Source of the DNA: Acidobacteriaceae bacterium
Lineage (GTDB): Bacteria; Acidobacteriota; Terriglobia; Terriglobales; Acidobacteriaceae
Direction: 5' to 3'
DNA length: 39,126 nt
NCBI GenBank assembly: GCA_030038195.1
Contig: JASHPJ010000131.1
Coordinates: 1-39,126 of the forward strand
Shown: positions 36,337-39,126 of the stretch, piece after piece
Position numbering within the stretch: the first letter of the stretch is position 1
How the letters are laid out: each line of letters opens with the position of its first letter
Notes under the pieces: model-generated
The model's input: only the letters and a program-made list of their open reading frames with translations
Databases searched by the model: none
Told to the model about the DNA's origin: nothing
Program-made: the position numbers and the translations under genes

Positions 36337-37251
36337 ATGAAAGTTTCGCTGGCCGGGATCGAGCTGGCGAATCCCGTGATCGCCGCCAGCGGCACCTTCG
36401 GTTACGGCATCGAGTTCGAGGAGATTGTCTCGCTCGAGCGGCTGGGTGGGTTTGTCACCAAGGGAATCTCGCTGGAGCCGATGGCCGGTCACCCTCCGCC
36501 GCGGCTTATCCACACGGCGGCCGGCATGCTCAACGCCATCGGGCTCCAGAATGTGGGCGTGAAGGATTACCTTGAAAAAAAACTGCCGCCCATGAAGCGG
36601 TACCCACAGTGCAAGGTGATCGTGAACGTCTTCGGCTACACGGTCAGCGAGTACCTGGGCGTCATCGGGCAGCTCAACCAGGCCGAAGGCATCGCGGCCT
36701 ACGAGCTGAACGTCTCCTGTCCCAACGTGCATGCAGGCGGAATGGCCTTCGGCGCGGATCCCAGCTGCCTCGAAGACCTGGTTGCGCAGGCCAAGGCTGC
36801 GTCCAGGCGTCCGCTGATCGTCAAGCTCTCGCCCAACGTGACCTCGATTGCGGAGATGGCGCAGGTGGCGGCGCATGCGGGCGCCGACGCGCTCAGCCTG
36901 GTAAACACGTTTCTCGCCATGGCCATCGACGTGGAGGAGCGCAAGCCGAAGCTCACCAACGTGACCGGCGGACTCTCGGGCCCGGCCATCAAGCCCATTG
37001 CGCTGCGCATGGTTTACGAAGCGGCCAGGGCGGTGAGCATTCCTGTCCTGGGCATGGGCGGCATCGTCACCGCGCAGGATGCGGTCGAGTTCCTGCTCGC
37101 CGGCGCGACCGCGGTGCAGGTGGGCACGGCCAGCTATGCCGATCCGCGCGCCACCGAGCGGCTGGTGCGCGAGCTTGAGCAATGGTGCAAAAGCCGCCAG
37201 GTGGAGCGTGTGGCCAGCCTCACCGGCGCGCTTGAGGCTCCGCGCGCCTGA
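36337..37251 (+). CDS. pyrD: dihydroorotate dehydrogenase, class 1B catalytic subunit
   Basis: FMN enzyme of pyrimidine synthesis, oxidising dihydroorotate to orotate; 304 residues. The active base is C128 in NVSCPNVHAGG, which marks class 1 enzymes. ANPVIAASGTFGYG, NAIGLQNVGV and GMGGIVTAQDAVEFLLAGA complete the FMN barrel and suit class 1B. That class normally pairs with PyrK, which is not in the window. The start is the ATG at 36337; GTG 36325, with GGAGGAGGG 12 bases ahead, is a real alternative. It diverges from the phosphatase gene and is followed by the reductase leader. Confidence 0.92.
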   Translation: MKVSLAGIELANPVIAASGTFGYGIEFEEIVSLERLGGFVTKGISLEPMAGHPPPRLIHTAAGMLNAIGLQNVGVKDYLEKKLPPMKRYPQCKVIVNVFGYTVSEYLGVIGQLNQAEGIAAYELNVSCPNVHAGGMAFGADPSCLEDLVAQAKAASRRPLIVKLSPNVTSIAEMAQVAAHAGADALSLVNTFLAMAIDVEERKPKLTNVTGGLSGPAIKPIALRMVYEAARAVSIPVLGMGGIVTAQDAVEFLLAGATAVQVGTASYADPRATERLVRELEQWCKSRQVERVASLTGALEAPRA

Positions 37252-37269
37252 TCCGCGTTCAGCAGAAGG

Positions 37270-37304
37270 TTGCGTTTCTGCTCGCCGCAGTCTATCATCT
37301 ACTC
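37270..37304 (+). promoter_or_regulatory. putative sigma-70-type promoter giving a leaderless start
   Basis: TTGCGT (37270-37275) and TATCAT (37293-37298) are separated by exactly 17 bases. A start seven bases past the -10 box would fall on 37305, the A of the leader-peptide ATG. It lies 18 bases past the pyrD stop. Confidence 0.5.
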
Positions 37305-37358
37305 ATGACTTTGATTGCCTGTTGTCGCTGCTGTCCCCGTACTCGCGCGCACAGGTGA
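37305..37358 (+). CDS. cysteine-rich leader peptide, probable attenuator
   Basis: A 17-residue ORF, MTLIACCRCCPRTRAHR, ending TGA. Four of five consecutive codons (37320-37334) are Cys. No Shine-Dalgarno precedes it, but a well-spaced promoter predicts transcription from its own ATG, so it may be translated leaderless. Cysteine-rich, often leaderless, upstream peptides are known in actinobacteria to attenuate sulfur-assimilation genes according to cysteine supply. Here the peptide stands 100 bases before a siroheme reductase. Its role is inferred from position and codon content; the ORF is short enough that chance must be considered. Confidence 0.6.
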   Translation: MTLIACCRCCPRTRAHR

Positions 37359-37453
37359 CGTGGACCAGAACCCCAGAAGCACAAAACCACGATTTCCGAA
37401 TGCCCGCGCACCAGCTTAGCTGCCGCGGGTTTTCCGTTTCTACCGGGAAAAGG
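37359..37453 (+). promoter_or_regulatory. possible attenuation region between leader peptide and reductase
   Basis: Three short helices compete here. CGTGG (37359-37363) can pair with CCACG (37387-37391). AAAACC (37383-37388) can pair with GGTTTT (37428-37433). TTTTCC (37430-37435) can pair with GGAAAA (37446-37451), which would cover part of the AAAAGG ribosome-binding region. Neighbouring helices share bases, so they are mutually exclusive. The stems are short, and which state is on or off cannot be settled by eye. Confidence 0.4.
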
Positions 37454-37458
37454 CAGAC

Positions 37459-39126
37459 ATGAGTGAAGCTGTTGCTGTAAAAGAGACCAAAGCTCAGCGC
37501 ATGGAGCGCCTGAAGCAGGAAAAGAACCCCTGGGAGGCCTTTGACGAGGTGCGCGCCTTCGCGCGCGCGGGGCGTTCGAGTGTGGTGCCTGAGTGGGCCT
37601 CGGCCTACTTCAAGTGGTGGGGCATCTACACCCAGGGCGACGGCGTGGGCGCCACCGGCGGCAAGGGCGGCGAAGGCCTGGCTTCCGAGTGGTTCATGCT
37701 GCGCATCGGCATCCCCAACGGGGTTGTCTCGGCGAGCCAACTGCGCACCATCGGCCAGATTGCCCGCAAGTACGCGCGCAACCTGGCCGATATTACGACG
37801 CGCCAGAATATCCAGCTTCACTGGCTCACTATTGAGTCGCTGCCGGAGGTGGTGGATGCGCTGAGCGCAATTGGCCTCTCGCCCAAGGGTGCCTGCGGCG
37901 ACGTGGTGCGCAACGTGACCGGCTGTCCGCTGGCCGGCGTAGCTGCCGACGAGCTGATCGATGCCTCGCCGATTGCGCGCGGCATCGCCCGGCTGCTGAC
38001 CGCCAATCCCGCTTTCTACAATCTGCCGCGCAAGTTCAAGATCTCTGCGTCTGGCTGCACCTCGTGGTGCAATTATCCGGAGGTCAACGACGTTGCGCTG
38101 ACGGCCGTGCGGCGCGGCGACGAAGTGGGCTACTCGCTGCGCGTGGGTGGAGGCCTGTCGAATGAGCCGCATCTGGCGGTGAGACTGGATGCGTTTGTCC
38201 GGCCCGACCAGGCCATCGACGTGGCGCGGACGGTGGCGGAGATCTTCCGCGATCAGCAGGCGCTGCGCGAGCATCGCGAACGGGCGCGGTTGAAGTACCT
38301 GTTCACCAAGGAGGGCTGGACGCCCGCAGACTTTCTCGATGAGCTGAACAGCAGGCTGGGCTATAAGCTCGATCCCGGCGTGCCTGAGAATGTGCCGAAT
38401 GAGATTCTGCGCGATCACGTGGGCATTCATCCGCAGCGGCAGCCGGGGCTGTGCTACGTGGGCGCTTCCGTGCTGCGGGGGCGGGTGACCGGCGAGCAGT
38501 TTGAGGCGGCGGCGGAGCTGGCCGAGCGATTCGGCAGCGGGGCGCTGCGCTGTACTATTTCGCAGAACCTGGTGATCGTGGATGTGCCCAGGGCGAAGAC
38601 TGCCGAGCTGGCACGCGAGCTTGGCCAGATCGGGCTGCATGTGGAAGGCTCGATATTCTGGCGGGGCGCGATTGCCTGCACTGGCACCGAGTTCTGCAAG
38701 CTCGCGATCACGGAAACCAAGGGCTTTACGCGCTGGCTGGTGGGCGAGCTCGAAGAGCGGCTGCCGCAGTTCGACCAGCAGCTCAAGCTGCACGTGACCG
38801 GATGCCCCAATGGCTGCGGCCAGCACTGGATCGCCGACATCGGCCTGGAAGGCAAGAAGGTCAAGCAGGAAGGCAAGCTGGTGGATGCCTACTACTTTTG
38901 CCTGGGCGGCGCGGTGGGCCAGCACGCAGGCGTGGCGCGGCCGGTGGGTTATCGCTGCGCGGCGACGCAGGTGCCTGAAGCGATCGAGCGGCTGCTGCGC
39001 CAATATCTGGCCGGGCGCGCGGAAAATGAGAACCTGCGTGCCTGGTTTGCGCGCCACTCCAACAATGAGCTGCGCGCGCAGCTTGCCGGCGAGGCGCTTG
39101 CCGCCGTGGAGCGCGACAAGCCGGCG
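37459..39126 (+). CDS. ferredoxin-type nitrite/sulfite reductase, siroheme and 4Fe-4S (3' partial)
   Basis: Assimilatory reductase; 556 codons are present and the frame runs off the window. Residues ~40-130 hold the first ferredoxin-like half-domain (FKWWGIYTQ, then RQNIQLHW). The siroheme/Fe-S ligands are C407-x5-C413 (ACTGTEFCKLA) and C449-x3-C453 (TGCPNGCGQH). Tyr57 (YTQ) and Cys146 (ACGD) are spaced much like the Tyr-Cys pair of mycobacterial NirA, which is a sulfite reductase. With the Cys-rich leader upstream I favour sulfite as substrate, but nitrite cannot be excluded. AAAAGG lies a few bases before the ATG. Few residues should be missing, as the family is near 560-600 long. Confidence 0.9.
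   Translation, partial: MSEAVAVKETKAQRMERLKQEKNPWEAFDEVRAFARAGRSSVVPEWASAYFKWWGIYTQGDGVGATGGKGGEGLASEWFMLRIGIPNGVVSASQLRTIGQIARKYARNLADITTRQNIQLHWLTIESLPEVVDALSAIGLSPKGACGDVVRNVTGCPLAGVAADELIDASPIARGIARLLTANPAFYNLPRKFKISASGCTSWCNYPEVNDVALTAVRRGDEVGYSLRVGGGLSNEPHLAVRLDAFVRPDQAIDVARTVAEIFRDQQALREHRERARLKYLFTKEGWTPADFLDELNSRLGYKLDPGVPENVPNEILRDHVGIHPQRQPGLCYVGASVLRGRVTGEQFEAAAELAERFGSGALRCTISQNLVIVDVPRAKTAELARELGQIGLHVEGSIFWRGAIACTGTEFCKLAITETKGFTRWLVGELEERLPQFDQQLKLHVTGCPNGCGQHWIADIGLEGKKVKQEGKLVDAYYFCLGGAVGQHAGVARPVGYRCAATQVPEAIERLLRQYLAGRAENENLRAWFARHSNNELRAQLAGEALAAVERDKPA

Follow-up and report, generated by a model that had tools for sequence, protein, structure and literature searches.

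What does a short Cys-rich open reading frame (ORF) do immediately ahead of a siroheme reductase gene in an Acidobacteriaceae bacterium? The window, i.e., the whole stretch of 39,126 nt that was analysed, ends within that reductase, and a first-pass annotation had proposed that the ORF is a leaderless peptide acting as a cysteine-sensing attenuator of the gene. The elements behind that proposal (a TTGCGT-17-TATCAT promoter, the ATG, the Cys codons and the reductase 100 nt on) were all found in the sequence where it had placed them (Table 1). The ORF comprises 17 codons, of which codons 6, 7, 9 and 10 are Cys, and stops at a TGA (37356-37358) that lies 100 nt before the reductase ATG. Only 6 nt separate the TATCAT box from the leader ATG at 37305, and the predicted transcription start is expected to be that ATG or an adjoining base. 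To these elements the present analysis adds a terminator and an antiterminator, both absent from the earlier account; leader, terminator and competing hairpin together would make up a complete trp-type attenuator. From this arrangement, the main reading put forward is a ribosome-mediated attenuator of transcription, sensing charged tRNA-Cys and controlling the sulfite reductase gene, with a probability of roughly 0.86.

Table 1. Features of the leader region and the reductase gene in the window.
Feature	Positions	Strand	Basis
Promoter: TTGCGT 37270-37275, 17-nt spacer, TATCAT 37293-37298	37270..37298	+	sequence
Leader ORF MTLIACCRCCPRTRAHR, stop included	37305..37358	+	sequence; Cys-rich leaders kept in orthologues
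Possible protector helix (tentative): Cys-codon stretch 37318-37326 with 37357-37364	37318..37364	+	RNAalifold, pair counts in relatives
Antiterminator hairpin: 37344-37363 with 37387-37408	37344..37408	+	folds, pair positions, structure-fitted covariation
Intrinsic terminator: GCCCGCG 37402-37408 / CGCGGGT 37424-37430, tail TTTTCCGTTT 37430-37439	37402..37439	+	sequence, pair counts, orthologues
Siroheme reductase (NIR_SIR), PRKFK motif, runs off contig end	37459..39126	+	Pfam, PDB sequence search, motif comparison

The reductase and the conservation of its leader

In a PDB sequence search, the solved chain nearest to the reductase is 1zj8 (E 4e-94), by its title NirA from M. tuberculosis, which we take to be a sulfite reductase. 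The last residue of the motif PRKxK/N, Lys or Asn, presumably marks the substrate, and the window has the Lys of the siroheme sulfite reductases (SirA-like), reading PRKFK where 1zj8 reads PRKYK and the nitrite reductase 3b0l reads PRKWN. The same division runs through the relatives, with PRK[FLY]K in 136 of 136 reductases (the three sets described below) and PRKFN in 17 of 17 paralogues, and on these motifs the identification of the window's gene as a nitrite reductase was rejected. The paralogue of the same genome (L194, G000:C148:7867-9429), which carries PRKFN and has no Cys leader, is probably the nitrite reductase. In NCBIfam, the reductase matches 11 families, none of them at its cut-off. 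Among the relatives, siroheme synthase and tetrapyrrole methylase domains are encoded downstream of the reductase in two loci (L101, L117) and a PAPS-reductase family gene in another (L163), and the gene directly upstream in L110 resembles cysH by eye. As nitrite and sulfite reductases both require siroheme, it is the PRKFK motif and the links to cysD and cysH, before which similar leaders were found, that carry the weight, and with them the earlier assignment of the reductase to sulfur assimilation is supported.

A search of 398 genomes of the family found homologues of the reductase (E <= 0.001, with paralogues counted) in 340, the best named relatives being Acidobacteriaceae MAGs (87%), a Terracidiphilus MAG (84%) and Occallatibacter savannae (79%). 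Upstream regions were scored for a leader (an ORF of 8-40 aa with at least three Cys, including CC), for a terminator-like hairpin at most 130 nt from the ORF stop and for a promoter-like TANNNT at most 14 nt from the start. Leaders, leaders with a terminator and leaders with both terminator and promoter numbered 28, 27 and 22 in the near set (29 relatives, L003-L031, with upstream DNA from the homologue search), 68, 65 and 50 in the genome-contig set of 80 loci, and 23, 23 and 22 in a third set, which came from a phylum search, yet whose 27 loci all belong to the same family; the three sets share genomes within one family and are not independent. The same three counts fell to 34, 3 and 2 among 534 control ORFs of at least 250 aa from the same loci, and to 20, 0 and 0 among 395 mononucleotide shuffles. 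None of the nitrite-type paralogues from 17 genomes, the window's own included, has a leader, and the more distant homologues of the phylum gave 3, 1 and 0 of 14. The comparison of orthologous upstream regions thus places a Cys-rich leader at the equivalent position in most family members, and its combination with a terminator-like hairpin (65 of 79-80 reductase orthologues vs 3/534 other ORFs and 0/395 shuffles) bears out the ORF as a real feature.

The leaders present in 28 of the 29 near relatives are typically of the form M-x4-CCRxC with 17 codons, and across the family the sequence around the Cys codons varies widely while the in-frame Cys-richness persists. The candidate attenuator also occurs in the cultured genera Edaphobacter, Granulicella and Occallatibacter. 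Where the script chose the equivalent start codon, the terminator starts about 91-114 nt past the leader start. A model built on the near group recovers one strong site in the own genome, the window leader itself (115.8 bits; next 17.1), and, at E <= 0.01, has matches in 29 of the 150 genomes from the family. The leaders of four relatives matched no NCBIfam family, and a plasmid BLAST returned no match.

By these criteria, 11 of 79 genome-contig loci have no leader. Three of them have a poorer one, with CxC only (L123) or with two Cys (L133, L143), and in L135 the leader stands before a YeiH-like gene that precedes the reductase. L112 (5842-5989) retains the RNA element and the terminator, its leader being interrupted by an early stop and lacking a Cys run, which is either a natural loss or an assembly error. 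The reductase lies directly behind another gene in L110 and L120, bases are masked upstream in L158, and reading the loci L149, L165 and L166 revealed no leader. Of the four misses of the third set, the three that were read (L173, L176 and L177, L179 being left out) have no leader, and in the last two the reductase again directly follows another gene. In the near set, the contig of L024 ends 90 nt upstream and shows no leader there, and L023 has a leader followed by a T-run under the terminator threshold.

Leaderless start, RNA folding and the alternatives

For the analysis of translation signals, the loci with both leader and terminator, 116 with the window counted, were reduced to 100 by removing those with identical first 150 nt. 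TANNNT occurs within 60 nt upstream of 94 of these 100 leaders, and for 56 of the 94 the distance from the end of the best match to the start is 6-7 nt; a Shine-Dalgarno (SD)-like tetramer precedes 8 of the 100 leaders vs 70 of the 100 reductases. With a -10-like box usually at leaderless distance and no SD in most relatives, the peptide is most simply read as leaderless, as had been proposed. Leaderless genes are reported for 3 of 3 acidobacterial genomes, at an average of 13.3%, in Table 2 of PMC3160421. TGY codons are concentrated in the frame of the leader (496/2304 vs 166/2204 and 72/2204 in the two alternative frames), an excess that is partly built in because the ORFs were selected for Cys; moreover, for some leaders (e.g., L026, L027, L104) the script placed the start at an in-frame codon further upstream than the likely one, which blurs both this count and the TANNNT distances. 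Leaders also prefer TGT over TGC (330:166, 67% TGT), in contrast to the reductases (85:943, 8%), and although other codon pairs in the leaders lean to T-ending codons too (387:592), they do so less than Cys (Fisher p 8e-23, relatedness uncorrected). As a separate observation, seven of the 100 leaders (L003, L004, L010, L014, L030, L109, L167) have a palindrome-like GGACCA...TGGTC, complete or in part, in the 60 nt ahead of them; it is absent from the window and is perhaps the operator of some regulator.

How would such a leader control the reductase? Transcription would begin at or beside the leader ATG, and a ribosome would load on the 5' AUG. If Cys-tRNA is short, the ribosome would stall at codons 6-7 and leave the RNA free from nt 40 onwards (37344 on), so that the antiterminator could form before the 3' arm of the terminator is made and the polymerase would read into the sulfite reductase gene. 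If cysteine is plentiful, the ribosome would proceed to the stop codon (nt 52-54) and cover the 5' strand of the antiterminator; with the latter blocked, the terminator hairpin would form and transcription would end. The structures involved are present in the window. Its terminator hairpin (37402-37430) is followed by TTTT, and 28 nt separate its end from the reductase; of the 136 reductase loci (three overlapping sets), 115 have a GC-rich hairpin with a T-rich tail. In 88 of 100 loci, no more than 60 nt lie between the end of the hairpin and the reductase, which leaves little room for a second promoter, and the nearest upstream ORF (longest-ORF heuristic) is divergent in 45 of 93, where the hairpin cannot end an upstream gene; both facts indicate that the terminator acts on the reductase transcript. 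The 5' strand of the antiterminator comprises the end of the ORF and the bases just after it, and its 3' strand includes the 5' arm of the terminator (37344-37350 pair with 37402-37408, and inner pairs join 37351-37363 with 37387-37401), making the two hairpins mutually exclusive.

The support for the antiterminator depends on how it is sought. One long imperfect hairpin from the last codons of the ORF to the 5' arm of the terminator was counted by eye in 26 of the 28 near leaders folded. In a structure-fitted alignment of 48 leaders, which favours the structure by construction, 85.4% of the antiterminator cells pair, both sides have changed in 25 cells and 9 of 18 pairs (at most 19 cells and 8 pairs in slid structures), and the covariation score is 0.179 vs 0.139 (sd 0.007) for shuffles and at most 0.100 for slid structures. 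In a plain MAFFT alignment of 29, the covariation of the antiterminator was not above that of shuffles, and RNAalifold on the near set selected the terminator together with the protector helix and passed over the antiterminator. The protector helix pairs in 92.5% of cases in relatives, with changes on both sides of 4 of its 7 pairs in single sequences, and it has a probability of 0.00 in the window RNA alone, where 37318/37364 is a C-A pair. The whole leader RNA of the window (154 nt) folds no better than shuffles (z 0.05); the segment that a stalled ribosome would free has a mean z of -1.3 in the set of 100 leaders, which spans all subtypes, with 55 of them below -1 and 25 below -2. In the same 100 leaders, the terminator arm is paired at 0.63 vs 0.46 in dinucleotide shuffles, and it is poorly paired in many leaders outside the near group.

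The effect of the ribosome position was modelled on the window RNA with the transcript ending at the 5' arm of the terminator. The antiterminator has a probability of 0.96 when the A site holds Cys6 or Cys7, 0.48 when it holds Cys10 and 0.00 with the ribosome at the stop codon, and it also forms early without a ribosome (0.77, rising to 0.97). In the complete RNA, the terminator prevails in every ribosome state (0.99-1.00); the choice between the hairpins must consequently be a kinetic one that requires translation to be coupled.

Could the Cys-rich ORF instead control the translation of the reductase, the hairpin being a mere RNA structure near its start, as in the mycobacterial type of attenuation? 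The leaderless poly-Cys ORFs of mycobacteria, the nearest functional parallel, are described as translational (PMC9031893, PMC13236596), and the cysD leader of the own genome has no clear terminator. Nevertheless, the GC-rich hairpin with its T-rich tail in 115/136 loci, the 100 nt between the ORF stop and the reductase start and the SD-like motif of 70/100 reductases make this explanation improbable. Somewhat less probable still is that the leader RNA answers another signal, through a ligand-binding RNA or a regulatory protein, the Cys-rich ORF being incidental. It would account for near orthologues keeping the Cys stretch even at wobble positions, where pairing with the stop region is possible, and for L112, which retains the RNA without an intact ORF; against it, the sequence around the Cys codons changes across the family while the in-frame Cys-richness stays, the TGT preference is strongest for Cys, and the Rfam 15 covariance models gave no match to 37200-37520 up to E 5 (a tRNA in L025 being the sole match in the relatives' loci). 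Finally, a chance ORF ahead of the terminator of the upstream gene hardly deserves credit, even though the window's upstream gene, whose end is at 37251, has the same orientation, since the control frequencies (3/534, 0/395, 0/17) reject the former and the divergent upstream ORFs of 45/93 loci the latter.

Similar leaders before other sulfur genes

The transcription attenuator favoured for the reductase may have counterparts elsewhere. Among the hits of the near-group model that were followed up are second sites before cysD in four genomes, before cysH in one and before a YeiH-like gene in one (cysD and cysH were named by eye, two being confirmed as PF01507). By the criteria given above, leaders, leaders with terminator and leaders with both numbered 23, 10 and 2 at 30 cysD loci, where some of the 23 may be spurious (the scripted L228 row differs from the leader read by eye), and 8, 7 and 5 at 12 loci of the YeiH-like gene. 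The two control ORFs that satisfied every criterion, a PF03601 (YeiH-like) gene in L135 and a PF00291 PLP-enzyme gene in L160, look from their upstream sequence like targets of further attenuators. The latter (L160:9618-10889, minus strand), with its Cys-rich leader and terminator ahead, has JAMM-like and ThiF-like genes about 1.7 kb away on the opposite strand (by eye).

In the own genome, CCTGTTGTCGC occurs three times: in the reductase leader, in the cysD leader and at a third site inside a long ORF region, the last taken as chance. The cysD leader (L228), read by eye as MMSASQRRSCCRLSNIFDGCMR, has no clear terminator. Leaders of the type ...SCC[CR]LSNIFDGC... precede cysD in L085 (1179-1247, G000:C94, own genome), L229, L231, L232 and L233 (diverged), and this form, in which no clear terminator is seen, is possibly a second attenuator design. 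Two further loci lie outside the family by label or lineage. On a contig labelled as an Opitutia MAG (L096:4272-4710), two divergent leaders of the reductase type lie before the reductase and before a gene that is YeiH-like by eye, for which mis-binning or transfer is possible; and in another family of the phylum (L219, G420:C178), a Cys-rich ORF, MNMYDFRTLRCCCSCPC..., is followed by a strong terminator and a distant homologue, its geometry not being leaderless.

Might the family govern its sulfate-to-cysteine route (sulfite reductase, CysD, CysH, the YeiH-like transporter and the PLP-enzyme gene) largely by leaderless Cys-codon attenuators sensing tRNA-Cys charging? This wider idea, which comprises a terminator-based design and a terminator-less one (CC...SNIFDGC, at cysD) and in which terminated leader RNAs might act in trans like rnTrpL, is tentative, its odds falling slightly short of even.

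Comparison with known attenuators

Two properties expected of leader-peptide transcription attenuators, a short upstream ORF rich in codons for the end product and a terminator between ORF and gene, are present in the sequence. The leader is a family-wide attenuator candidate with a clear signal, mechanism and target set. It also offers an aid to annotation: in the sets examined, it accompanies the PRK[FLY]K sulfite-type reductases, and 17 PRKFN paralogues are without it. A literature search, with most subscription papers outside its reach, retrieved no cysteine attenuator described in Acidobacteriota.

The first-pass annotation had drawn a parallel with actinobacteria, which holds for function and not for mechanism. 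Mycobacteria have leaderless polycysteine ORFs before sulfur genes (Shell 2015, PMC4633059), and the likeness described there extends to the short ORF with clustered Cys codons, the cysteine and sulfur genes downstream and cysteine as the proposed signal. However, the mycobacterial control is described as translational (Canestrari 2020 as cited; PMC9031893, PMC13236596), and conserved terminator hairpins were not found in those leader regions, according to PMC1262725, so the likeness is functional only: the acidobacterial leader, of another phylum and another sequence, is the one with a terminator and a competing hairpin. By analogy, it would work like the mycobacterial polycysteine attenuators, sharing with them the leaderless Cys-rich ORF before sulfur genes and departing from them in having a terminator, yet it is not classed as one.

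Closer in mechanism is the Rhodobacterales uORFC-8-2 before cysS, for which ribosome-mediated attenuation by a Cys-codon uORF with a terminator has been proposed (PMC8632094). As described there, it has tandem Cys codons and an intrinsic terminator as well, but differs in lineage, in the position of Cys (codons 14-15), in its two-stem layout and in its target, a tRNA synthetase gene; it is described as lying exclusively upstream of cysS, and the gene downstream here is a NIR_SIR gene. For the leaderless start, the trp attenuator rnTrpL of S. meliloti is a precedent, since its RNA is reported to begin at the ATG of the leader ORF (PMC7298713); it too is a transcription attenuator, although it senses Trp and is unrelated in sequence and target. 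The kind of attenuator is already known, and the combination of cysteine, a leaderless start and an intrinsic terminator, in Acidobacteriota and before several sulfur genes, is what distinguishes this variant.
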